Origin: Polyangiaceae bacterium | Lineage (GTDB): Bacteria > Myxococcota_A > Polyangia > Polyangiales > Polyangiaceae | Assembly: GCA_019637265.1 (NCBI GenBank) | Contig: JAHBVY010000002.1 | Span: 496,001-560,000, forward strand | Length of the DNA stretch: 64,000 bases | Direction of reading: 5' to 3' | Part shown: piece after piece, positions 44,005 through 62,640 of the stretch | Position numbering within the stretch: position 1 is the stretch's first letter | Layout of the letters: each line of letters starts with the position of its first letter | Notes under the pieces: generated by a model | What the model was told of the DNA's origin: nothing | Seen by the model: the letters and a program-made list of their open reading frames with translations, nothing else | The model's database searches: none | Position numbers and translations under genes: made by a program

Positions 44005-45714
44005 TTAAACCGGCAGCACGGGCAGCAGGCGACGGTAGCCATGCGCGCGCACGAAGTTGAGGTGCACCCCGCGGCAAGCGCCGTCATGCACGCACTCCTG
44101 ACAGCGACGACTCTTGGTGTAGTAGCGGTCGGCGATGTAGCGCCCCGTGTACTTCCCCATGTCCACCCGCGCGTCAGGCCCCAGCATCCCCATGTCGAGC
44201 TCCGAGCTCGCCGCGCGGGGCGGCTCACCGCCCAAGCACGCCGGGATGTTCTCCGTCGCGAGCGGCGCCGGGATCTTGCCGAGCAGCTCCTGCACGTCCA
44301 CGTCCTCACGGATTTGGTCCGTGACCCGATCGTAATTGGGCTGCACCAGCACCAACCTCGGGCGATGTTCCTCTGCCAAGTCCTCGATGACCGCGCGCGT
44401 GCCGCGGTTCAGGTACACGCACAGGTCGACGTCGAGCGTACCACCGGACGTCGCCGTGAGGACCGCCTCGAGCTGCTCCGCGGTGCGGAGGTAGCAGCGC
44501 GTCACCGGTAGACCCGCGAGGCGCTGATCGGGAGCCAAGGCATCGGTCAGGCCGGCGTAATTCTCGAGCTCCAGGTAGAGCTGGCTCGGCGCCCCCTCAC
44601 TGTCCGTCACCGCGCAGCTGAGGCCCGCGCCGCGCGCCGCTTGCACCGCCGCCAAGAGCGCGCGCGCCTCGGCGATGTCCTCCGCCACCACGCGCACGGC
44701 GCTCGCCGTCGGGAGCTGCCCGGAGACGGGCGCTGGCTTCACCAAGCGGAGCTCCCCCACGTGCGTGAGGCGCCGCTCCTCGATCGCCTGATCCAAGCCG
44801 TCGCACAGCTGGTTCAGGTAGCAGTAATGACAACGCTCGGGCTGACGGCAGCTGAGCTTCTTCCCCACGCTCAGGTAGCGGTCGAACTCCTCACGGCGGC
44901 CGCGCACCTCGTCGTTCATCTTGTAAGGGTCTTGGATCAGCTCCTCGAACCCTTCGGTGAACGGCGGTGGGAAGCGGTTCAGCCAAATGTGGACATCGGG
45001 GCGCCGCGAGTAGGCGAACGCGCGCCGCAGCGAGTCCTCGTTCCCCTCCAGGTCGTAGAACAAGTGCTCCTTGGCGGGGCCCCACGCATTCCCAAATGGG
45101 ATGATGTGCAGCAGATCGAACTCCTTCACGCCCCAGGAGATGAACGTCTCCAGCATCTCAGGGAGGTGCTTCACGTTCTGCTTGTTGATGACGATGTCCA
45201 CGTTGACGATGAAGCAGCCCGCGGCGAGCGCCGCCTTGAGCCCCCGCGACTCCTGCTCGAAGGCGCCGGGCGTCGCCACCAAGGCGTCGTGGAGCTTGGC
45301 GGTGTGGCCGTGGAGTGAGAACGTGATCTCATCCAGGCCGTTCGCCGCGGCGGTGTTCAGGAACTCCGGGTAGGCGAACATCCGCCCGTTGGTCACCGTC
45401 TGCACCTTCGGGTAACCAGCGCGCTTACCCAGCTTCACGAAGTCGAGGAAGTTGGGGTGCATGGTGGGCTCGCCGCCGCTCAAGATCAGGCGCGTCGCCC
45501 CCTTCTTCCGCCCCTCCACGATCTGGATCTTCACCTCCAGGTTGCTGCGCATCGTCCCCACGTGCGCCAGCGAGTCGAGGCAGAAGGTGCACTTGTTGTT
45601 GCAGTCGTAGCTGAGCCGCACCCAGTTCCGCTTCTCGTGCGCCGCCTCTTCGTGGTTCTGCACCTTCTGCAGCTCGTCCTCGGCGGACGTCACCTCGGCT
45701 TGCTGCATGCTCAT
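44005..45714 (-). CDS. Radical SAM enzyme with two SPASM-like Cys clusters
   Basis: A 569-residue radical SAM protein, last gene of the minus-strand cluster. The [4Fe-4S]-SAM motif is C38-N-N-K-C42-T-F-C45, followed by LILSGGEPTMH (residues 78 onward) and TNGRMFAYP. A first extra Cys group is C289-x5-C295-x2-C298-x5-C304-D-G; a second near the C-terminus is C538-x2-C541-x5-C547-x-G with NFVRAHGYRRL. Such auxiliary clusters are typical of peptide- and protein-modifying SPASM enzymes. A central 220-residue region between the two Cys groups has no clear family. The substrate is probably within the cluster. Confidence 0.88.
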   Translation of the reverse strand: MSMQQAEVTSAEDELQKVQNHEEAAHEKRNWVRLSYDCNNKCTFCLDSLAHVGTMRSNLEVKIQIVEGRKKGATRLILSGGEPTMHPNFLDFVKLGKRAGYPKVQTVTNGRMFAYPEFLNTAAANGLDEITFSLHGHTAKLHDALVATPGAFEQESRGLKAALAAGCFIVNVDIVINKQNVKHLPEMLETFISWGVKEFDLLHIIPFGNAWGPAKEHLFYDLEGNEDSLRRAFAYSRRPDVHIWLNRFPPPFTEGFEELIQDPYKMNDEVRGRREEFDRYLSVGKKLSCRQPERCHYCYLNQLCDGLDQAIEERRLTHVGELRLVKPAPVSGQLPTASAVRVVAEDIAEARALLAAVQAARGAGLSCAVTDSEGAPSQLYLELENYAGLTDALAPDQRLAGLPVTRCYLRTAEQLEAVLTATSGGTLDVDLCVYLNRGTRAVIEDLAEEHRPRLVLVQPNYDRVTDQIREDVDVQELLGKIPAPLATENIPACLGGEPPRAASSELDMGMLGPDARVDMGKYTGRYIADRYYTKSRRCQECVHDGACRGVHLNFVRAHGYRRLLPVLPV

Positions 45715-45794: not shown

Positions 45795-46745
45795 TCATCG
45801 CGCCCCCAGGTGCTCCATCCGGAGCAGCCACTGATTGCTGGAACGGGGGCTCACCTCATGTGCCTCGAGCACCCGGAGCGGTAAGCCTTTGAGCAGCTCC
45901 CACGCCTCCGTGAGGTCGGCGTTCTGGTAGTGCTCGTGCTCCGCCTGACTCGACTCCGCGCGGCGCGCGTGGACCGCCAGCCGTACCAGCCCGAAGGCGA
46001 CGTTATCCACCACCGTGAGCGTGCCACCGGGGCGCAAGGCGCCGAGCAGCGCGGCGACGGCGCGCGCTGGGTCCGCCAGGTGGTTGAAGCTCCGCAAGAT
46101 GAGCACGTGATCGAAGCGGCGCCCCAGCTCGGGCGCGCGCTCCGCCGTCAGGGTGACGAAGCGCGCCGAGGGGTAGCGCGACGCGAGCACCCGGAGCCTC
46201 CCAGGGTCGGGATCGAGCCCGACGTAGCGGATGGCCTCCGAGGCCATCAGCGGCCCCAGCCGGTGAAGGTAAGGCGCGTCACCGCAGCCCACGTCCAGCA
46301 CGTCACCCCGAAGCCCCGAGAGCACCTCCGCCACCCGCTGATCGTCACGAGTGAAGACATCCGACCTGACCACTGTGTAGGCGCCGGGACAGCTCGCCCG
46401 CGCCGGGCAGCGGAGGCACATCGGGAGCTCTTGGAGCTTCGCCAAATCCGCGGCGAAGTCGTCCGGCGCGAGCTTGCGCGAGACATCAGCGTACAGCTGG
46501 CCGTGCTCATCCTTCACCCGGAGCAGCTCTTCATCGCTGAAATCCGCGGTGTCAGTCTCGAACAGGCGCGCGCGCCCATCACCTCCCCGAGGGCTCAGCC
46601 GCACGAAGACGCCCCGCGCCCGCGAGGCGAGGGGCGGCGCACCATACACCGGGCACACCTCAGGAGAGGGCCACCGCACGTCCCCCCTCGGCACCAAGTT
46701 GAAGGAGTTCGAGCGGAGCCGCGGGGCCACACCCGAGATTAGCAC
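45795..46745 (-). CDS. SPASM-type Cys motif fused to a SAM-dependent methyltransferase
   Basis: A 316-residue protein. GTG 46745 has GAGGAG seven bases upstream; the longer frame is encoded by a G-rich repeat and rejected. The N-terminal half resembles the back half of a radical SAM/SPASM protein: C31 (EVCPVYG), then C110-L-R-C113-x5-C119-P-G. The C-terminal half is a class I methyltransferase with VLDVGCGDAPYLHRLG (149-155 onward), YVGLDPDP, FDHVLILRSFNHLADP and LRPGGTLTVVDN. The fusion suggests methylation linked to a radical SAM product. It lies 80 bases before the radical SAM gene. Confidence 0.85.
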   Translation of the reverse strand: MLISGVAPRLRSNSFNLVPRGDVRWPSPEVCPVYGAPPLASRARGVFVRLSPRGGDGRARLFETDTADFSDEELLRVKDEHGQLYADVSRKLAPDDFAADLAKLQELPMCLRCPARASCPGAYTVVRSDVFTRDDQRVAEVLSGLRGDVLDVGCGDAPYLHRLGPLMASEAIRYVGLDPDPGRLRVLASRYPSARFVTLTAERAPELGRRFDHVLILRSFNHLADPARAVAALLGALRPGGTLTVVDNVAFGLVRLAVHARRAESSQAEHEHYQNADLTEAWELLKGLPLRVLEAHEVSPRSSNQWLLRMEHLGAR

Positions 46746-46786
46746 GCGCCGCTCCTCACTTCGCCCGACTACAAGGGTCGGGTTTT

Positions 46787-46804
46787 GGGGGTTGGACGGC
46801 ACCG
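46787..46804 (+). repeat. Dispersed G-rich repeat, TTGGACGGCACC type
   Basis: Exact GGGGGTTGGACGGCACCG, 42 bases before the methyltransferase start but in opposite orientation; on the minus strand it opens the spurious frame that begins MPSNPQNP. Confidence 0.75.
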
Positions 46805-46929: not shown

Positions 46930-47331
46930 TCAGCTGCGCCGCTCGATGGTGATCCCCAGCGCGTAGTTGCACAGCTCATCGGCCAACATCTGCGCGCTGT
47001 GCTCGCTGGTGCTGGTCACCCGCACCACGTAGGCGTCCGCCTGACGCGAGAGCTCGAAGCGACCGAAGTCCCCGTAGAGCTTCACCGCCTCGTCGATGGC
47101 CTCACCCACGTAGAGATCCGGATCGAACTGAAGCTCGATGGCCTCGTCAGCCTCACTCACAACCACGCTCCCCTCGCTGCACTGCGCTTCGTTGCTACGC
47201 TGCGCTTCGTCGCTGCACTGCGCTTCGTCGCTGCACTGCGCTTCGTCGCTGCACTGCGCTTCGTTGCTGCACTGCGCTTCGTTGCTACGCTGCGCCGCTC
47301 GGCCACCTGACTCACGGCTTGGGCTCCTCAT
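46930..47331 (-). CDS. HxsD-like protein with Cys hexapeptide repeats (long form)
   Basis: A 133-residue reading. The C-terminal 76 residues (from GTG 47160, after GAGGGGAG) look like a small HxsD-type protein: IELQFDPDLYVGEAIDEAVK, LYGDFGRFELSRQADAYVV and ADELCNYALGITIERRS. If translation starts at ATG 47331 instead, overlapping the previous gene by 20 bases, the N-terminus carries seven hexapeptides of the form (N/D)EAQ(C/R)S with several Cys. Which start is used decides whether the repeat is protein or only DNA. HxsD proteins accompany radical SAM enzymes in His-Xaa-Ser systems; their role is not known. Confidence 0.7.
   Translation of the reverse strand: MRSPSRESGGRAAQRSNEAQCSNEAQCSDEAQCSDEAQCSDEAQRSNEAQCSEGSVVVSEADEAIELQFDPDLYVGEAIDEAVKLYGDFGRFELSRQADAYVVRVTSTSEHSAQMLADELCNYALGITIERRS
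47176..47301 (-). repeat. 18-bp tandem repeat, seven units
   Basis: Perfect or near-perfect units from 47176 in steps of 18. On the minus strand each reads AACGAAGCGCAGTGCAGC or a variant, encoding NEAQCS, DEAQCS or DEAQRS. Confidence 0.92.
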
Positions 47332-47788
47332 CCCGAGGGCTGCCTTGAGGATCGAAAGGGGTCGCCTTGCTGACCTTCTTGTACTTGTCCTCCCAGCTCA
47401 TGGCGATGCCGAGGGGGTCTTCGAAGGCGGACTCGTCGTCGATGCTCATGTCGAGCAGATCATCGAGCCCCGGCGGGCCCGCAGCGCCCGCGAGCGCCTG
47501 CGTGGTCACCTGCTCGATCAGCTCCCGATTCTCGTCGGTGATGAGCCGCCGCCAGGCCTGACCCAAGATCTCGTTCTCGAACTCCCCCACCAAGGCATCG
47601 AGCGAGCGCTCCGTCCCGGGCTTCAGCTTCAGCCGAACCACGATGCGATCCCCCTCGCGATCGAGCTTGACGTAGCAGCGATCGATGAAGATGTACGCCG
47701 CGCCGTACACCGCGTCCTTCGGGTACAGCGCCTCGTCGAACGCGATGGTCACCGCCCCATCCGCCGCCCTCACCTCATGGTCGCTCAT
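47312..47788 (-). CDS. HxsD-like protein
   Basis: A 158-residue cytoplasmic protein resembling HxsD of His-Xaa-Ser systems: AVTIAFDEALYPKDAVYGAA, YIFIDRCYVKLDREGDRIVV and RLKLKPGTERSLDALVGEFE, then LGQAWRRLITDENRELIEQ. The C-terminal 40 residues (DDLLDMSIDDESAFEDPLG) are acidic. ATG 47788 has GGGAGAGAG six bases upstream. It is the first of two adjacent HxsD-like genes, and the second starts before this one stops. Best read as an accessory or recognition protein for the radical SAM enzyme. Confidence 0.78.
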   Translation of the reverse strand: MSDHEVRAADGAVTIAFDEALYPKDAVYGAAYIFIDRCYVKLDREGDRIVVRLKLKPGTERSLDALVGEFENEILGQAWRRLITDENRELIEQVTTQALAGAAGPPGLDDLLDMSIDDESAFEDPLGIAMSWEDKYKKVSKATPFDPQGSPRDEEPKP

Positions 47789-47964
47789 GAGAACTCTCTC
47801 CCGTGGAAGTAGCTTGGAGTCAAGGCCCGACGCCCGCGCGCCCTTCAGCACATGGTGAGGGGTGCGGCGAATCCGCGCAGGGCCACTGACCAGCGCTCAA
47901 CGTGTGTGCCACCCGAGCCCCGGCGCGCCCTCGACCGAGCACGCGCCGCGGGCGCAGGCGAGAC

Positions 47965-49746
47965 TCACTGCGAGAAGGTCACCGAGAACTGCTCACACTC
48001 GGGGTTCGAGCCGCCGCCAGGGATCGCGGCACGACGGATGCGCACGATGACGGAGCCACCTGGGTTCGAGTTGTCCGTGCAGTTGCCCGAACCACCGCAG
48101 AGGATGGTGGTGCCCGACTTCAGGCGCGAGGTCGCGTAGTTCGCCACCCACTCCGTCACGTTGGTGGCCGTGACGGCCGGTCCCGTCCCACCCGGGATGG
48201 GGCAGGTCGCGGTCGTGGAGCAGTTCGTCAGGATGTCCATGCGGTACCCGCGACTGACCGACGCCGAGCTCAGCACGATCCGCGGGTTCCACGACTGGTT
48301 CACGTTGGGGTTCGGCCGGTTCAGGGTGACCCTGAAGTGCGACGCGCCGTTCAGCGTCATGATCGTCCCATTGATGGTGCCGTCCAACGTCGTCGGGCTG
48401 GCGCAGGTGTTCACGTAGGTGGTGGTGCACACCTGAGCCTCACACCCGTCGCAGATGTCGCCATTGGCGTCGACACGACCGGCAGGGCAGCTGCCCTGAG
48501 CGAACTCACAGCTGCCCGAGTTGCAGGTGAAGACGGGCGCGTTGGGGATCTGCTGTCCAGCGCCGAGGCGACCCCAGTCCTGGCAATTGCGAGTGCAGAG
48601 CGCCAGCGCATTGCCGTTGTCGACCGCCCCATTGCAGTCGTTGTCGAGGCCGTCGCAGCGCTCGTCGATGGGGGTGTTGATGGGGTTACACTGGAACGCA
48701 CCGCCGGCGCACGCCTGAGTGCCCAACGCGCACTGGCCCTGCGCACCACCCACGGTGCACGCGAGGCCCACCCCAGGCAGCTGCTGCCCGGGAGGCGGGT
48801 TGTCCGTGCTCCCATCGCAGTCGTTGTCCAGCCCATCGCACACCTCAGAGGTGGGGAACACCTGCTGGATGCAGGCGATCTGTCCCGCCTCACAGCGGCT
48901 CAGACCCTGCCGACACACCCCGAGCTCGGAGGTCACGGTGCAGGCATTGCCGCCACCAGGATCACCCTCATCGATCTCGCCATCACAGTCGTCGTCCAGC
49001 TGGTTGCACTGCTCCGGCAGCGTCCCAGGCTGCACCGTGGGCAGACACACCACCGTCGAGGTCGTCGTGTCGCACTGAGTGACGCCCACCGCGCACACGC
49101 CGGCCAGCCCAGTGGAGCAAGCCTGCCCGCCCTCCGGGTTACCCTCGTCGACCTGACCATCACAGTCGTTGTCGAGCCCGTCGCACACCTCGGCGGTCGG
49201 GCCCGTGTTGGGCTCACAGCGCAGCTGGCCGAGCCGGCAATTCAAGGTGCCCTTCGCGCACTCGCCCGCCTCGCCGGGCACCGTGCAGGGACCACCACCG
49301 CCCGGGTTGCCCTCGTCGATCTGACCGTCGCCGTTGTCGTCCAAGCCGTTGCAAATCTCCGGTGTTCCGGTCGTGCCGCCGGACCCCGCCGAGCCAGCCG
49401 ACCCCGCGGAACCGCCCGCACCAGCGAACGAGCCACCCGACCCCGCGGAACCGCCCGCGCCGGCGAACGAGCCGCCCGAGCCGCCAACGGACCCACCCGC
49501 GCCAGCGAACGAGCCACCCGAGCCGGCGAACGAACCGCCCGACCCCGCGGAACCGCCCGCGCCGGCGAACGAGCCGCCCGAGCCAGCGGCACCCGCGGTC
49601 CCACCGTTCCCCCCGGAGCCGCCCTTACCACCCTGCTGCCCTGTATCAGCGTCACCGCCAGACGCACAACCCGCGAGGGCAGCGAGCCCGAACGCCAACG
49701 ACGTGGACACTACGATGCGACGACCTGTGCTGATTCGACGAGTCAT
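47965..49746 (-). CDS. MopE-like lipoprotein with Cys-Asp repeats
   Basis: A 593-residue predicted surface lipoprotein. GAGGTG precedes ATG 49746; the signal ends AALAGC. About 95 residues of GSAGSGGSFAGAGGS linker are followed by five repeats centred on CDGLDNDCDGQVDEG (variants CNGLDDNGDGQ, CNQLDDDCDGE, CDGLDNDCNGA), each with flanking Cys. These resemble MopE and thrombospondin type-3-like calcium-binding units. The C-terminal 180 residues form a Cys-containing beta domain (FRVTLNRPNPNVNQSWNPRI). In this cluster it may be a substrate or a partner of the modifying enzymes; direct evidence is absent. Confidence 0.82.
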   Translation of the reverse strand: MTRRISTGRRIVVSTSLAFGLAALAGCASGGDADTGQQGGKGGSGGNGGTAGAAGSGGSFAGAGGSAGSGGSFAGSGGSFAGAGGSVGGSGGSFAGAGGSAGSGGSFAGAGGSAGSAGSAGSGGTTGTPEICNGLDDNGDGQIDEGNPGGGGPCTVPGEAGECAKGTLNCRLGQLRCEPNTGPTAEVCDGLDNDCDGQVDEGNPEGGQACSTGLAGVCAVGVTQCDTTTSTVVCLPTVQPGTLPEQCNQLDDDCDGEIDEGDPGGGNACTVTSELGVCRQGLSRCEAGQIACIQQVFPTSEVCDGLDNDCDGSTDNPPPGQQLPGVGLACTVGGAQGQCALGTQACAGGAFQCNPINTPIDERCDGLDNDCNGAVDNGNALALCTRNCQDWGRLGAGQQIPNAPVFTCNSGSCEFAQGSCPAGRVDANGDICDGCEAQVCTTTYVNTCASPTTLDGTINGTIMTLNGASHFRVTLNRPNPNVNQSWNPRIVLSSASVSRGYRMDILTNCSTTATCPIPGGTGPAVTATNVTEWVANYATSRLKSGTTILCGGSGNCTDNSNPGGSVIVRIRRAAIPGGGSNPECEQFSVTFSQ

Positions 49747-49772: not shown

Positions 49773-50717
49773 TCAGGGAGCCACGCTGCTTTCCGCAGGG
49801 ATACTGCCTACCGCGTGCGCGGCGAGACCTTGAGCGTCGCCGCTTCCCCTAACAGGGACCTCAAGCACCCGCCCGGAGGCGGGAAGGAACGACGCCGAGG
49901 CTCCTGATGAGCTCGGCGCAGACTTCGACTGGACGCCCTCCGAAGAGGCGGCCTTCAATTGCGCTTCCGAACAGGCTTGCGCTTCCAAACAGGCTCGCGC
50001 TTCCAGGAAAACCCGATGCGCCTCTACGCGCGGCGCCCGATCCACCTCGAGGTGGAGCCCCAAGCCGTGAGCCACCTCGGCCCCCAACCGCAGCTGACGC
50101 GCCAAGAGCGCCCGCGGTGCGATCCAGCTCGGCGCCTCGGGGGAATCTGGCGCTTCAAGGAAACACAGCGCCTCCACCTCGGCGACGCGAAGCGTTCGTA
50201 CGCCCACCGCGGCGCACAGCCGGACCAGCTCCGTGATGTGCCGGTAGTTCGAGCGGGTGAGGATGGAGGTGACGATCACCTCGAGCCCCGCCGCCCGCGC
50301 GGCGCGCACCCCGAGCAGGGTGCGCCGGAAGCTACCTGGTGTTGCCGTATGGAAATCGTGCATCGGCGCGGTGGAGCCATACACCGGCACCTCGAGCCGC
50401 TGTGCCCCAGCGCGCGCTAGCTGCTCGGCAGCGCCCGCCTGACTCAGCAGCTCCGCGCTGGTCCCCAACGTCACCCGCAGGCCCCGGTCACTCGCCAGCC
50501 GCGTCCAATGCAGCAAGGCCTCGAGCCCGCACGCATCCACCCCGTCGAGCCCCACCTCGCGCGCCTCCGATCGGACGGCGTCGAGCGCCGAGATCGTACA
50601 GCTGGCGCCGACCGTCAGCGCAGCTCCGCCAGGCGCCACGCCAAGGCGCGCGGCGGCTGGACCCGAGCCGTCTGGATCCGGGCTAACAGCCGGGCTGACG
50701 AGGTGGAACCAACGCAC
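49773..50717 (-). CDS. Degenerate radical-SAM-like protein
   Basis: A 314-residue protein whose body matches the radical SAM barrel (LEVPVYGSTAPMHDFHT, GSFRRTLLGVRAARAAGLEV, TSILTRSNYRHITELVRLCA) but lacks the cluster. Where CxxxCxxC is expected it reads C40-T-I-S-A44-L-D-A47, and the GGEP motif is missing (DACGLEALLHW). It therefore cannot hold a normal [4Fe-4S] centre. The C-terminus carries LEARACLEAQACSEAQ repeats. GTG 50717 is preceded by GAGGGCACC and lies 9 bases after the previous stop. It could be a non-catalytic partner that presents substrate to the active enzyme, as inactive paralogs do in other systems; that is inference. Confidence 0.8.
   Translation of the reverse strand: MRWFHLVSPAVSPDPDGSGPAAARLGVAPGGAALTVGASCTISALDAVRSEAREVGLDGVDACGLEALLHWTRLASDRGLRVTLGTSAELLSQAGAAEQLARAGAQRLEVPVYGSTAPMHDFHTATPGSFRRTLLGVRAARAAGLEVIVTSILTRSNYRHITELVRLCAAVGVRTLRVAEVEALCFLEAPDSPEAPSWIAPRALLARQLRLGAEVAHGLGLHLEVDRAPRVEAHRVFLEARACLEAQACSEAQLKAASSEGVQSKSAPSSSGASASFLPASGRVLEVPVRGSGDAQGLAAHAVGSIPAESSVAP
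49955..50015 (-). repeat. 18-bp repeat encoding LEAQAC units
   Basis: TTGGAAGCGCAAGCCTGT and two near copies in direct succession. It shares the GAAGCGCA(A/G) core with the 18-bp array in the HxsD-like gene. Confidence 0.75.
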
Positions 50718-50726
50718 GTGGTGCCC

Positions 50727-51287
50727 TCAGCCTCGCTCGGTCAACTCGTGCAAGTAGCTCCGCGCCTGGCGCTGGTGTTTCTCTGCGGAAACGAAGCGCG
50801 ACACGTCGACCGCCTGCTCGTTGCCTCGGATCACCTCGGCGAGCGCCATCGCAGCCAAGCCCTGCTCCTCCGCCGTGGGCTTGGCGCCGTCGCCGTGGTT
50901 CATCACCATCACCTCGAAGTGATCGGTGACGCCCGGGCTGCGGGGCGACGCTGACCTCCGCACCACGTCGAGCTGGAACGCGCCGCTCGCGCTCGTGACC
51001 AGCACGCTGACCGCGCCGGCGTCCAGCGAGCGCACGCTCGCGATCTGCCAGCGACCGAGCTCCGCGCCCGCCGCGAGGGGCGCCACCAGTTGATCGGCCA
51101 GCGCACGCTCAGCGCTCACGACCGTTGCTGCTCCTTCGAGCGTGCCCGCGGCGCCTGCAGGTGCCGCCAGCTTCGCCCAGCCCGTCGCCAGCGCGGGGGA
51201 AGTGGATCCCACGATCGCCGCCGATGCAGCGACACCCGCTCCGATCACACACGTTGCCTCGCGACGGCTGAGTTTCCCGGTTTTCAT
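50727..51287 (-). CDS. Twin-arginine-type exported protein of unknown function
   Basis: A 186-residue protein, first gene of the cluster. ATG 51287 follows GGAGG with suitable spacing and a promoter. The N-terminus MKTGKLSRREATCVIGAG then VAASAAIVGSTSPALA has the paired Arg and Ala-rich region of a Tat signal, though the classic SRRxFL core is replaced by SRREATCVIG. The mature 145 residues form a mixed domain (QLVAPLAAGAELGRWQIASV, TDHFEVMVMNHGDGAKPTAE) with no family I can name. Position at the head of a radical SAM cluster makes it a candidate substrate or the product-binding protein. Confidence 0.72.
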   Translation of the reverse strand: MKTGKLSRREATCVIGAGVAASAAIVGSTSPALATGWAKLAAPAGAAGTLEGAATVVSAERALADQLVAPLAAGAELGRWQIASVRSLDAGAVSVLVTSASGAFQLDVVRRSASPRSPGVTDHFEVMVMNHGDGAKPTAEEQGLAAMALAEVIRGNEQAVDVSRFVSAEKHQRQARSYLHELTERG

Positions 51288-51757
51288 ATGGCAAGCCTCC
51301 AACCCGATTGTCCGCTTTGTCGCACCCCCCGTCAACGTTCATTCGGTCAAACGGTCGCAACCTGCACGACACGCTTGAGAAGATGGGGCCTGACGGCGGT
51401 TCAGGCTCCTTCGCGCTCAGATCGCCGCGCAGCGGAGCGGGGCGGAGCGGGGTTGGCGCGGCGATCAGCGGCCTTGCCCGAGGCTTTGCGCACCACGCCG
51501 AGCTACGACGCTCTACTTCACTTCCTCCGGGACTTCCTCCGGGCTTCTTCCGACGCTCTACTTCTTCTTCCGGGCCTCTTCCGGCGCCCTCCTCGCGACG
51601 CCCTGCCTCTTGCGACGCTCTAGCTTCTTGCGACGCTCTCGCACCAAGCCGCACCAAGCCGCACCCGCCCCCACTATCACCACCCCTCCAGGCGCCGCGC
51701 GTGTCGCGGGTGCCACGCGCGCGTCACCGCCCCGCTCTGAGACGCACCACCGCGCCC
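51288..51757. other. Intergenic region of 470 bases with low-complexity repeats
   Basis: Holds the cluster promoter (51307-51335). Beyond it, 51495-51645 is a run of imperfect CGACGCTCTA and TTCCTCCGGGCCTCTTCCGG words of low complexity. Short open frames here are Arg-rich and unsupported. Confidence 0.7.
51307..51335 (-). promoter_or_regulatory. Sigma70-like promoter of the 51.3-44.0 kb cluster
   Basis: On the minus strand TTGACG (51335-51330) and GACAAT (51312-51307) are 17 bases apart, an optimal spacing. The transcript would start near 51300, about 13 bases before ATG 51287, with GGAGG in between. This is one of the best promoter matches in the window. Confidence 0.7.
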
Positions 51758-59507: not shown

Positions 59508-60218
59508 TCACGGGCCGCCGTAGAACGATCCGCGCAGGCCGAGCGTCACCAGGTGCGCCGTGATCGACCGGCTGTACACGTGGCTGTAGTCGAGCGCGGG
59601 GCCAAACGAGAGCTGCCCAGCGCGCAGGCCCTCCCAGAACGCGCCGAGCCCCATCACGCTCACCGCGCCACCATCCGCGGTGTTGCGCCCGTCCTTCTCC
59701 AGCTTCAGCTGGCCGATCCCACCCTGGGCAGCCAACCCGAAGTCGTCCCCGAAGCCGCTGCCGAACCACGGGTACGCCTCCACCCTGAGCAGCGCAGCCC
59801 AGGCGCGGCCCTCGTGACCGCCGCCTGACAACACGCTCTGGCTGTAGCCGACGCCCAGCGACATCCAATCGCGGAAGGCGAGCCCGATCATCAGCGTGGC
59901 GCCGCCACCCACCGCGAGCCCCGTGCTGGCCTCGTACGCCGGGACGTCGATCTCATCCACCTCGTTCCGGTAGCCGCTCACCGCCCCGAGCACCCCGCTG
60001 CCCGTGAGCGTGAGCATGAAGTCCGAGCGACGCTGGTACTCGATGTCGTAGTCCCCATCCCACACGTCGCTGTCCGCCGCGGGGCCCACGCCCTCCTCCT
60101 CCGCCTGAGCGAGCCCAGTGAACGCGCCGGAGGCCAACAGGAGACCCACGGAAGCGAGCGAACGAGTCACGGTGAAGGAGCGCCGTTTGGCGAGGCGATG
60201 GGTGGAGCGCTGAGCCAT
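59508..60218 (-). CDS. Outer-membrane beta-barrel protein
   Basis: A 236-residue protein with a signal peptide (SLASVGLLLASGAFTGLAQA) and a run of barrel strands (DFMLTLTGSGVLGAVSGYR, DWMSLGVGYSQSVL, AWAALLRVEAYPWF, LSFGPALDYSHVYS, LVTLGLRGSFYG). Function unknown. The ATG at 60218 directly abuts a 22-base hairpin (60219-60240, GGGACCC / GGGTCCC) on the message, with no ribosome site visible, so translation may depend on that hairpin or on a downstream start. Divergent from the large radical SAM gene. Confidence 0.75.
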   Translation of the reverse strand: MAQRSTHRLAKRRSFTVTRSLASVGLLLASGAFTGLAQAEEEGVGPAADSDVWDGDYDIEYQRRSDFMLTLTGSGVLGAVSGYRNEVDEIDVPAYEASTGLAVGGGATLMIGLAFRDWMSLGVGYSQSVLSGGGHEGRAWAALLRVEAYPWFGSGFGDDFGLAAQGGIGQLKLEKDGRNTADGGAVSVMGLGAFWEGLRAGQLSFGPALDYSHVYSRSITAHLVTLGLRGSFYGGP

Positions 60219-60240
60219 GGGACCCCGCTATGTGGGTCCC
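60219..60240 (-). promoter_or_regulatory. Hairpin abutting the barrel start codon
   Basis: GGGACCC (60219-60225) and GGGTCCC (60234-60240) form a 7-bp stem with an 8-base loop, ending right at the start codon on the minus strand. It could block or expose the initiation region. Confidence 0.55.
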
Positions 60241-60303
60241 GGAGGGGGGGTGGGTCAACCCGTAAACGCCAGCCCCCAGCGCGCTCATGCTACCCTCCTC
60301 GTC

Positions 60304-62640
60304 ATGGCGCGCGTCGCGGTGTGTTTTGCGCCCCTCAGCGTCTCCCGCGACTTCATCGATTACCCCTATTTCGCCGATCTGGGCGCGGTGCAGGCGGCTG
60401 CCGTGCTGCGCCGCGCGGGGCACGAGGTGACGGTGTATGACGCGCTGGCCACCCCCGGCGCCACCCTCACCCCCGAGGGGGACCGCGCGCTCCTGGGAGT
60501 GCCGGTGCCCACGCTGCTCCAGCACCTCCAGCCCTTCGATCTCGCGCTGGTCGCCTACACCCCCTTCCACCGCCCGCCCACGCGCGACGCGTTGCTCGCG
60601 TCCCTGCTCACGGCGCTCCGCGAAGCGGCGCCGAGCGCGCCCATCTTGCTCGCCGATCTTTATCAATCGGGGCAACACGTGGTCGACGCGCCGAGCCAAG
60701 CGATCCTGAGCGCCTACCCCGAGGTGCACGCGCTCTTGCGCTACGAAGCGGAGGGGTGGCTCCCCGAGTGGGTTCAGGAGCTCACGGCGCGGTGCCGTCT
60801 AACCCCCCCCCAAAACCCTCGCGAGGTCCGCGACGGCAACACGGGGCCTGCCATCGTCCTCGATGAGCTCCCGCTCCCCGCCTGGGACCTGGTAGACACC
60901 GAGGCTTACTTTAATTTCCATGAGGAAGTGATGGCCGGCCTCGGGCGGCCGCACTGGGCGTTCCCCATCAGCGGGCGTCACCTGCCCCTGCTCTCGAGCC
61001 GCGGCTGCCCCTTCCGCTGCGCCCACTGCTCGAGCAACCCGGGCCTGACGCCGGGGCAACCCAAGACCCAGCGTCGCTACTCCCGCGCGAGGCTCGCGGA
61101 GCACCTGGACTGGCTCATGCAGCGCGGCGCCCGGAGCGTGCACCTCTTGGACGAGCTCGCCAACGTGAACGAGCGACACTTCGACGCCCTGCTCGAGCTG
61201 CTCGCGGAGCGCGACCTCAGGTTCGAGATCCCGAATGGGCTACGGGCTGACTACGTGCTGCCGAAGCACCTCGCGGCGATGCGCGGGCGCCTCTCCACCC
61301 TCAGCGTGAGCGCCGAGAGCGGCGTGCAGCGGGTGGTCGATCAGGTGGTGGGCAAGCAGCTCGATCTGCGGCGCATCGTGGGCACCGCGAAGAGCGCTCA
61401 CGAGGCGGGCGTGCGCACCTTGGTGCACTACATCATCGGCATGCCGGGCGAGACGAAGGCCGACATCAACGGCACCCTGCGCTTCGCCCTCGACCTCTAT
61501 GAGAAGTATCGCGCGGAGCCGAGCGTCCAGTACGCCACGCCGCTCCCCGGCACGCGCCTCGAGCGCGAGGCCATCCAGCGCGGCGCCGCCCAGCTGCCCG
61601 TCGTCCCCGACTGGGGCCCGCATTTTCAAGCGAAGCCGAGCCTCGCCTCACGCGAGTTCGAGCTGAGCGAGCTCACGCGGTTCCGCGACAGCTTCGACGC
61701 CCGCCTCAGCGCGCTACGCGCGCCGCCGCCTTTGGTCGTGAACCTGACCTCCAGCTCCAATGAGCGCTCGCCGTTCAGCGAGGCGGTGGCTCCCACGCAG
61801 CGCGATCTGAGCGCCGAGGAGCAGCGACGGCTCGTCGTCCTGGCGCGCCAGCGTGGCGCCACCACGCTCGAGGTGACCGGTGGTGAGCCTACCTTATCAC
61901 GTGAGCTGCTCCCCCTCGTCCGCCTGGCGCGCCGCCTCGGGTACCAGTCGATCAAGCTCATCACCAACGCGCGCCGCGCCACCTACCCCGCCTACGCCGC
62001 GCAGCTCATGTCAGCTGGGCTGACAGAAGTGTGGGTGCGGCTGCATGGCGGTAGCGTCGCCTCGCACCAGGCCGTCACCCAGGTGCCAGAGTCCTTCGAG
62101 CAGACGCTGCTCGGGCTACGGCACCTGCTGGCGCATCGAGCGGGCGCGGTGGTGGGGGTGACGGTCGCGCTCCGTCGCGAGATCACGCGCGAGCTCGATG
62201 ACTTGTGGGCGAGGCTCATGACGCTCGGCGTCACGCGAGCGCGGCTGGAGCTGCCCCCGGGCCTCAGCGCCGCCGACCTGGCGCTCACCGGGGCGGGCTC
62301 GCTCGAGCTCGAGTGGGTCCACGCGCCCCCCTGTCAGGTCCCGCCGGGGCTCGCGGCGGTGCCCACCCCGCCCACGGTGGAGGCGATCAACTACCAGTCG
62401 GAGGCCGCGCGACGCTTCCTCGAGCCACCCCGCGTGCACCAGCCGGCGTGTGAAGCCTGCGCGCATCGCGCTGATTGTGAGGGTTTCTTCGTCGAGCAGG
62501 GCCTTCACCCGGGGGGGAGTCGCGAGGGGCAAACAGAGCCCCCGTTGGAGCCAGGCTCCAAGCAGGCCGCCGAGCAGCTCGGCCCCGGGGGCTTGGGGGG
62601 CCCCTCACCATCTTGCGCAAGAGCACGGTGGTCAGGCTGA
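60304..62640 (+). CDS. B12-binding-type radical SAM protein with a second serine-substituted radical SAM domain
   Basis: A 778-residue protein. Residues 1-170 look like a cobalamin-binding domain (PYFADLGAVQAAAVLRRAGH). The first radical SAM domain has C235-P-F-R-C239-A-H-C242 (SRGCPFRCAHCSSN), LLDELANVNERHFDALLELL and IIGMPGETKADI. A second barrel starts near 475: the segment NLTSSSNERSPFSEAV aligns with a CNxRCxFC motif but has Ser at all three Cys positions (S485, S489, S492). GEPTL, LITNARRATYP and GSVASHQAVT follow in normal order. The C-terminus has C716-x2-C719-x5-C725-E-G. The family resembles methyltransferase- or maturase-type B12 radical SAM enzymes. Confidence 0.88.
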   Translation: MARVAVCFAPLSVSRDFIDYPYFADLGAVQAAAVLRRAGHEVTVYDALATPGATLTPEGDRALLGVPVPTLLQHLQPFDLALVAYTPFHRPPTRDALLASLLTALREAAPSAPILLADLYQSGQHVVDAPSQAILSAYPEVHALLRYEAEGWLPEWVQELTARCRLTPPQNPREVRDGNTGPAIVLDELPLPAWDLVDTEAYFNFHEEVMAGLGRPHWAFPISGRHLPLLSSRGCPFRCAHCSSNPGLTPGQPKTQRRYSRARLAEHLDWLMQRGARSVHLLDELANVNERHFDALLELLAERDLRFEIPNGLRADYVLPKHLAAMRGRLSTLSVSAESGVQRVVDQVVGKQLDLRRIVGTAKSAHEAGVRTLVHYIIGMPGETKADINGTLRFALDLYEKYRAEPSVQYATPLPGTRLEREAIQRGAAQLPVVPDWGPHFQAKPSLASREFELSELTRFRDSFDARLSALRAPPPLVVNLTSSSNERSPFSEAVAPTQRDLSAEEQRRLVVLARQRGATTLEVTGGEPTLSRELLPLVRLARRLGYQSIKLITNARRATYPAYAAQLMSAGLTEVWVRLHGGSVASHQAVTQVPESFEQTLLGLRHLLAHRAGAVVGVTVALRREITRELDDLWARLMTLGVTRARLELPPGLSAADLALTGAGSLELEWVHAPPCQVPPGLAAVPTPPTVEAINYQSEAARRFLEPPRVHQPACEACAHRADCEGFFVEQGLHPGGSREGQTEPPLEPGSKQAAEQLGPGGLGGPSPSCARARWSG
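60790..60807 (-). repeat. Dispersed G-rich repeat inside the radical SAM gene
   Basis: Minus-strand GGGGGTTAGACGGCACCG, the same variant as at 39238. It encodes part of ARCRLTPPQNP on the plus strand, at the domain border before the first radical SAM barrel. Confidence 0.7.
62009..62025. repeat. 17-bp perfect inverted repeat
   Basis: TGTCAGC-TGG-GCTGACA within codons of the radical SAM gene (MSAGLTE); the clearest member of the GTCAGCTGGGCTGAC family. Confidence 0.8.

Follow-up and report, generated by a model that had tools for sequence, protein, structure and literature searches.

The window, a 64,000-nucleotide stretch of a Polyangiaceae genome, encodes a class I SAM-dependent methyltransferase, assigned as such by its profile match and its SAM-binding motif I, with four conserved cysteines in an N-terminal module. 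The protein is best read as the form, lacking a radical SAM (rSAM) core, of a Myxococcota enzyme in which such a core is followed by two cysteine modules (module 1 and module 2) and then the methyltransferase, and the distribution of this family across sequenced genomes ties it to the His-Xaa-Ser (Hxs) RiPP system. We put at roughly 60% the probability that the window protein serves the Hxs RiPP pathway as its SAM-dependent methyltransferase, carries a metal cluster in its module, and works, having no rSAM core of its own, with the rSAM protein encoded next to it; we infer both its substrate and its partner.

The window gene and its cysteine module

The gene lies on the minus strand (45795-46745) and encodes 316 residues from a GTG at 46745. 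Its open reading frame (45795-46802, minus strand) may be extended up to another GTG at 46802; the start at 46745, which is preceded by a GAGGAG-type ribosome site, is the better one and is also that used in the initial annotation, and our residue numbers count from it. The G+C content at the three codon positions (0.75/0.50/0.85) supports the frame as a real gene. The methyltransferase domain takes up the C-terminal part of the protein (45798-46310, minus strand) and matches Pfam Methyltransf_12 with 49.7 bits (cut-off 30), as the proposal of a class I methyltransferase had led one to expect. Its motif I, D151-x-G153-x-G155, is kept almost throughout the 100 aligned relatives (D151 in 98, G153 in 100 and G155 in 99).

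The N-terminal part of the protein (residues 1-145; 46311-46745, minus strand), which corresponds to module 2 of the fused relatives, contains the motif C110-x2-C113-x5-C119 (46389-46418, minus strand) followed by a glycine, G121, as the initial annotation had stated. The CX2CX5C spacing indeed recurs in the two rSAM proteins of the window to which it had been compared, at residues 295 and 538 of the protein at 44005-45714 and at residue 745, close to the C-terminus, of that at 60217-62640, and the window protein does lack a CxxxCxxC sequence and hence the rSAM core. Beyond what had been noticed, a fourth conserved cysteine, Cys31 (46653-46655, minus strand), lies upstream of the motif; the fifth and last cysteine of the protein sits in motif I of the methyltransferase. 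In the predicted fold of module 2 (pLDDT 88.2, pTM 0.78), a pair of strands and a helix separate C31 from CX2CX5C.

The C110-x2-C113-x5-C119 pattern appeared in none of 20000 shuffles of the window protein, and all four cysteines are present in 90 of the 100 aligned relatives, so that the motif is not due to chance. These relatives were chosen by similarity of the methyltransferase and not by their cysteines, and the 10 rows without the full set were retained. Taken singly, Cys31 is present in 90 rows and the three cysteines of the motif in 90, 91 and 93, and the 10 remaining relatives lack nearly all four; the cysteines are thus kept or lost almost jointly, as would fit ligands of one cluster. 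The "invariant" Cys110, Cys113 and Cys119 of the sets A1 and A3 do not count as independent evidence, since both sets were selected for CX2CX5C. Nine of the 10 cysteine-poor relatives form a single clade in the tree (L091, L093, L095, L150, L152, L154, L156, L157 and L161), and seven of these nine have MopE-like genes, in some cases very large ones, no more than 10 kb away.

The initial annotation had called the cysteine cluster SPASM-type, a label that our results support in part: the module has a SPASM motif but does not appear, from sequence comparison, to belong to the SPASM family. The SPASM signature comprises seven cysteines, with CX2CX5C continued by CX3C. The CX3C part is absent from the window protein, in which residue 123 is a tyrosine, as are the further cysteines of the signature. 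None of 40 members matched the Pfam SPASM model (PF13186), and the NCBIfam model TIGR04085 gave weak matches in 3 of 56 (best E 0.0056), the window protein not being among them. In profile alignments, module 2 could be aligned over only 22 columns (26%) with the C-terminal module of the 44005-45714 rSAM family and over only 27 columns (85%) with module 1 of the fused family itself, and it showed no significant similarity to the SPASM region of HxsB. When modules 1 and 2 were compared in pairs, 27 of 4800 pairs reached E<1e-4, but none of the 4800 reached E<0.01 once the motif was masked; the similarity is thus local, and module 2 may or may not have arisen by duplication of module 1. A PDB sequence search with the module 2 profile gave a single match, to a cytochrome (E 0.42). 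Searched against the PDB with Foldseek, the predicted fold had 13 matches, none at E<=0.001, and the best Z in VIA was 2.8; no SPASM/twitch entry stood among the matches listed for module 2 alone, though the module may still have such a fold. Given the weak or absent profile matches, the short alignments, the masked pairs and the missing CX3C, the N-terminal half shows no sequence similarity to SPASM proteins beyond some 25-60 residues around the motif; outside these residues, the result is the one that the initial annotation had named as refuting its reading.

We consider the module probably iron-sulfur-binding. It is the cysteine pattern that points to a bound metal, and the cluster would most likely be of the [4Fe-4S] type. 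A less likely but serious alternative is that the metal in the module is structural zinc, or that the module holds nothing redox-active at all, and that it serves an ordinary methyltransferase only as a domain for docking the substrate or a partner. In favor of this, module 2 finds no match to SPASM in Pfam or to a known fold and only weak ones in NCBIfam, the methyltransferase survives without the cysteines in 10 of 100 relatives, and the module survives without any rSAM core. Against it, the CX2CX5C spacing is typical of Fe-S sites, a few members weakly match EndoIII/MutY models, and module 2 of the fused relatives follows a CX2CX5C module that is attached to an rSAM core and to which it is locally similar.

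Fused relatives and the radical SAM core

Of 377 genomes of the phylum, 69 contain a match to the N-terminal part of the window methyltransferase. Scanning named genomes yielded 68 loci, nearly all under myxobacterial or deltaproteobacterial names (among them Polyangium, Plesiocystis pacifica SIR-1, Enhygromyxa, Minicystis rosea and Archangium), with a few labelled just bacterium or proteobacterium. The architecture counts cover 101 distinct relatives and leave out the loci of nine module-positive genomes. Judged by their motifs, 60 of the 101 carry an rSAM core (CxxxCxxC), cysteine module 1, cysteine module 2 and the methyltransferase in one frame, and 20 have the standalone, window-like form. 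The remainder comprises seven relatives without CxxxCxxC (some cut at contig ends), two without module 1, and 12 classed as "other", two of which (L086 and L112) have all four cysteines and look like standalone forms with over-long frames. The fusion of cysteine module and methyltransferase, for which a search in other genomes had been suggested, thus does recur, but mostly together with the rSAM core that the window protein lacks, which makes the window protein a cut-down version of an enzyme that has three parts.

The core motif of most fused members is Y-x-C-N-(E/D)-x-C-x-F-C-H-T, which differs from that of the 44005-45714 family. A model of the fused Polyangium protein (pLDDT 91.5, pTM 0.88) aligns structurally over its first ~290-355 residues to SkfB, SuiB, BlsE and anSME, and beyond residue ~380 to class I methyltransferases. 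Other joinings were also seen: at L079 (788-3160) the methyltransferase is fused with the rSAM domain from the C-terminus of the B12-rSAM protein, and at L085 (8132-11353) and L087 (7632-11087) to B12-rSAM-like sequence without module 1.

On a midpoint-rooted tree of 100 of the 101 rows (L158, cut by a contig end, was dropped), whose root is not fixed, the standalone label changes six times, with at least four of the changes forced by well-supported branches. The window protein falls in a standalone group of nine rows (support 93, not starred), within a set of 26 rows (support 96) that holds 15 fused proteins. We infer that the core was lost and not gained, because one core type runs through the fused forms. 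The rSAM half was sought in genomes with the standalone type, including that of the window, and was absent from all 13 (best scores 72-93 bits), as compared to 371-681 bits in 7 of 7 control genomes with the fused form; nor was there an rSAM remnant between the window methyltransferase and the HxsD-like gene upstream of it. Two candidates for the missing half were rejected. The separate 313-aa rSAM protein of the standalone group f27 (156-172 bits) sits beside HxsB and is therefore read as HxsC-like. The protein at 44005-45714 is not a split-off half, since its family coexists with the fused form as its neighbour (for example in Polyangium) and its core motif differs (FCLD versus FCHT).

Among the relatives the methyltransferase is retained more often than the cysteine set, and the cysteine set more often than the rSAM core, an order suggesting that methyl transfer is the constant function. 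That the window protein is a decaying remnant of the fused enzyme, heading for loss, is very improbable: CxxxCxxC has indeed been lost from two other rSAM modules of the region (49773-50717 and the second core of 60217-62640), but nine divergent standalone proteins, with end branches up to 0.77, retain the four cysteines and motif I, and the codon usage is gene-like.

Genomic ties to the Hxs system

HxsB was found in 66 of 69 module-positive genomes and in 60 of 308 module-negative ones (Fisher p 3e-34, a value that overstates independence because the genomes counted share ancestry). Within the family to which the window belongs the figures are 15 of 15 and 1 of 20, respectively. As for the three module-positive genomes without HxsB, one has a weak module match and two are 58% and 68% complete. 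The 60 genomes with HxsB and no module indicate that the methyltransferase is not essential to Hxs.

In the genome of the window (G000) the Hxs genes are dispersed over contigs C12, C18 and C19, with HxsD in the window itself. HxsB occurs once, on C18 (548.6 bits, over its cut-off), and HxsA4 once, on C19 (112.9 bits, cut-off 55), as a frame of 101 residues that ends with fourteen HGS repeats and a tryptophan.

The window methyltransferase probably belongs to an operon read along the minus strand, in the order Tat-signal protein, degenerate rSAM protein, MopE-like protein, HxsD, HxsD-like protein, methyltransferase and rSAM protein 44005-45714. The first gene (50727-51335) encodes a conserved protein with a Tat-like signal that adjoins the 49773-50717 rSAM family and is found within 10 kb in 8 of the 9 loci of the window's clade. 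The second (49773-50717) encodes an HxsC4-like rSAM protein without CxxxCxxC (PF04055, 22.6 bits, under its cut-off); its relatives at L040, L042, L056 and L155 keep CxxxCxxC, and that at L051 has also lost it. The MopE-like cysteine-rich protein (47965-49746; PF11617, 82.9 bits) has counterparts in 4 of the 9 loci. HxsD (47312-47851; TIGR03976, 63.6 bits in the window and 65.1 bits in the genome search, cut-off 50) is the only one found in the genome, and in 5 of 7 genomes searched from this clade the sole HxsD adjoins the methyltransferase. The HxsD-like gene (46930-47331; NF038315, 69.4 bits, cut-off 41) probably has its true start near 47170, past an 18-bp tandem repeat (6.8 copies, 47174-47295) that lies between the two genes and lengthens the open frame of the latter. 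The last gene (44005-45714) encodes the proposed partner, an rSAM protein whose core is HxsC4-like (CNNKCTFC; NF038332, 115.9 bits, cut-off 500) and which carries two CX2CX5C modules; against the HxsC model TIGR03977 it scores 89.6 bits (cut-off 267.9; this protein only). Members of its family lie within 10 kb in 7 of the 9 loci of the window's clade and in 22 of 60 fused loci. A plasmid search gave no match.

At all nine loci of the window's clade, HxsD and the HxsD-like gene lie no more than 10 kb away, and none of the nine has HxsB or an (HGS)n/HxsA4 gene within that distance. At the 60 fused loci, often bounded by contig ends, HxsD was found within 10 kb in 31, HxsB in 27 and an (HGS)n gene in 26; HxsD was absent within that distance from the other 29 and from all eight f27 standalone loci, partly on cut contigs. 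The fused gene of Plesiocystis occurs with HxsB (604.5 bits, cut-off 370) and HxsA4 (67.7 bits, cut-off 55), and its locus also encodes an aKG-HExxH peptide hydroxylase (99 bits, cut-off 40). At L101 a standalone gene occurs with HxsB (522 bits), HxsA4 (119.9 bits) and HxsD (56.9 bits). Peptide beta-hydroxylases of the aKG-HExxH type were seen near the fused methyltransferase of the Hxs locus L110 (5682-6887, TIGR04267 match) and, by similarity, near the standalone one of L101 (8706-9977).

Proposed role and known systems

In the mechanism that we favor, C31, C110, C113 and C119 would hold the cluster in the N-terminal module. The operon would supply HxsD and the HxsD-like protein, while two further components, HxsB and HxsA4, the precursor with (His-Gly-Ser)n repeats, would come from elsewhere in the genome. 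The methyltransferase would then methylate the Hxs peptide, or a His or Ser of that peptide which an rSAM step has first altered, with the cluster module docking on the peptide or on the rSAM partner, for which the neighbouring 44005-45714 protein, acting in trans, is the favored candidate. A more specific scenario, which we regard as distinctly unlikely in its entirety, is that the module and methyltransferase were freed several times from the three-part rSAM enzyme and now complement, in trans, an rSAM protein encoded nearby, with the cluster in an auxiliary or docking role and the His-Gly-Ser repeats of HxsA4 as the methylated target. If this were true, the neighbouring rSAM protein would perform the radical step and the cluster of the window protein would be its auxiliary cluster or docking site.

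The methyl group might instead go to a small cofactor or to one of two proteins of the operon, the MopE-like secreted one and the one with the Tat-like signal, which we hold to be unlikely though worth weighing. The MopE-like and Tat-signal genes of the operon, both recurring in the window's clade, speak for such a target, as do the encoding of HxsA4 on a different contig and the MopE-like genes adjoining 7 of the 12 relatives classed as "other". The genome-wide association of the module with HxsB and the (HGS)n genes close to many fused loci, however, argue for the Hxs peptide, and methylation within the Hxs system predicts a mass shift of +14 Da, or multiples of it, on a defined precursor.

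The name of the Hxs system was derived from genome sequences years ago. In the open-licence papers searched we found neither a known product of it nor an Hxs methyltransferase or a fusion of the present kind. The window's genome resembles the Hxs system (HxsA4/HxsB/HxsD; NF038313, TIGR03978, TIGR03976) in these genes, two of HxsD type being in the operon and HxsB and HxsA4 elsewhere; it differs in the spread over three contigs and in the methyltransferase, for which NCBIfam has no model (best, DVU_1556 methyltransferase, 39 bits, cut-off 155). The core of the fused form best matches HxsC4 (94 bits, cut-off 500). The NCBIfam TrsS rSAM protein and DVU_1556 methyltransferase, which probably pair genetically, are of related type, but they are two separate proteins, and the scores of the window region are far under cut-off. 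With the SPASM/twitch proteins SuiB, SkfB, anSME and BlsE, to which the N-terminal half of the fused relatives aligns, the window protein shares CX2CX5C, a further upstream cysteine and the modelled strand pair and helix between them; unlike them it has neither the rSAM core nor CX3C, and its family's NCBIfam matches are weak.

RebM, OvsM/OvoA, LahSB and CgnL, class I methyltransferases of natural-product and RiPP pathways, share with the window protein a Rossmann-type fold and an intact motif I; the window protein adds the N-terminal cysteine module, and these matches are at the level of the fold and do not fix a substrate. OvsM/OvoA methylate histidine derivatives, but we draw no substrate from this likeness because many unrelated methyltransferases score equally. 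The fused, standalone and cysteine-less forms provide a natural series for studying the role of an auxiliary cluster after loss of the rSAM core.

Elsewhere in the window, a B12-binding rSAM protein is encoded on the plus strand (60217-62640), and its second rSAM core reads SNERSPFS, as compared to CNNHCTFC in relatives, with serine replacing all three cluster cysteines.
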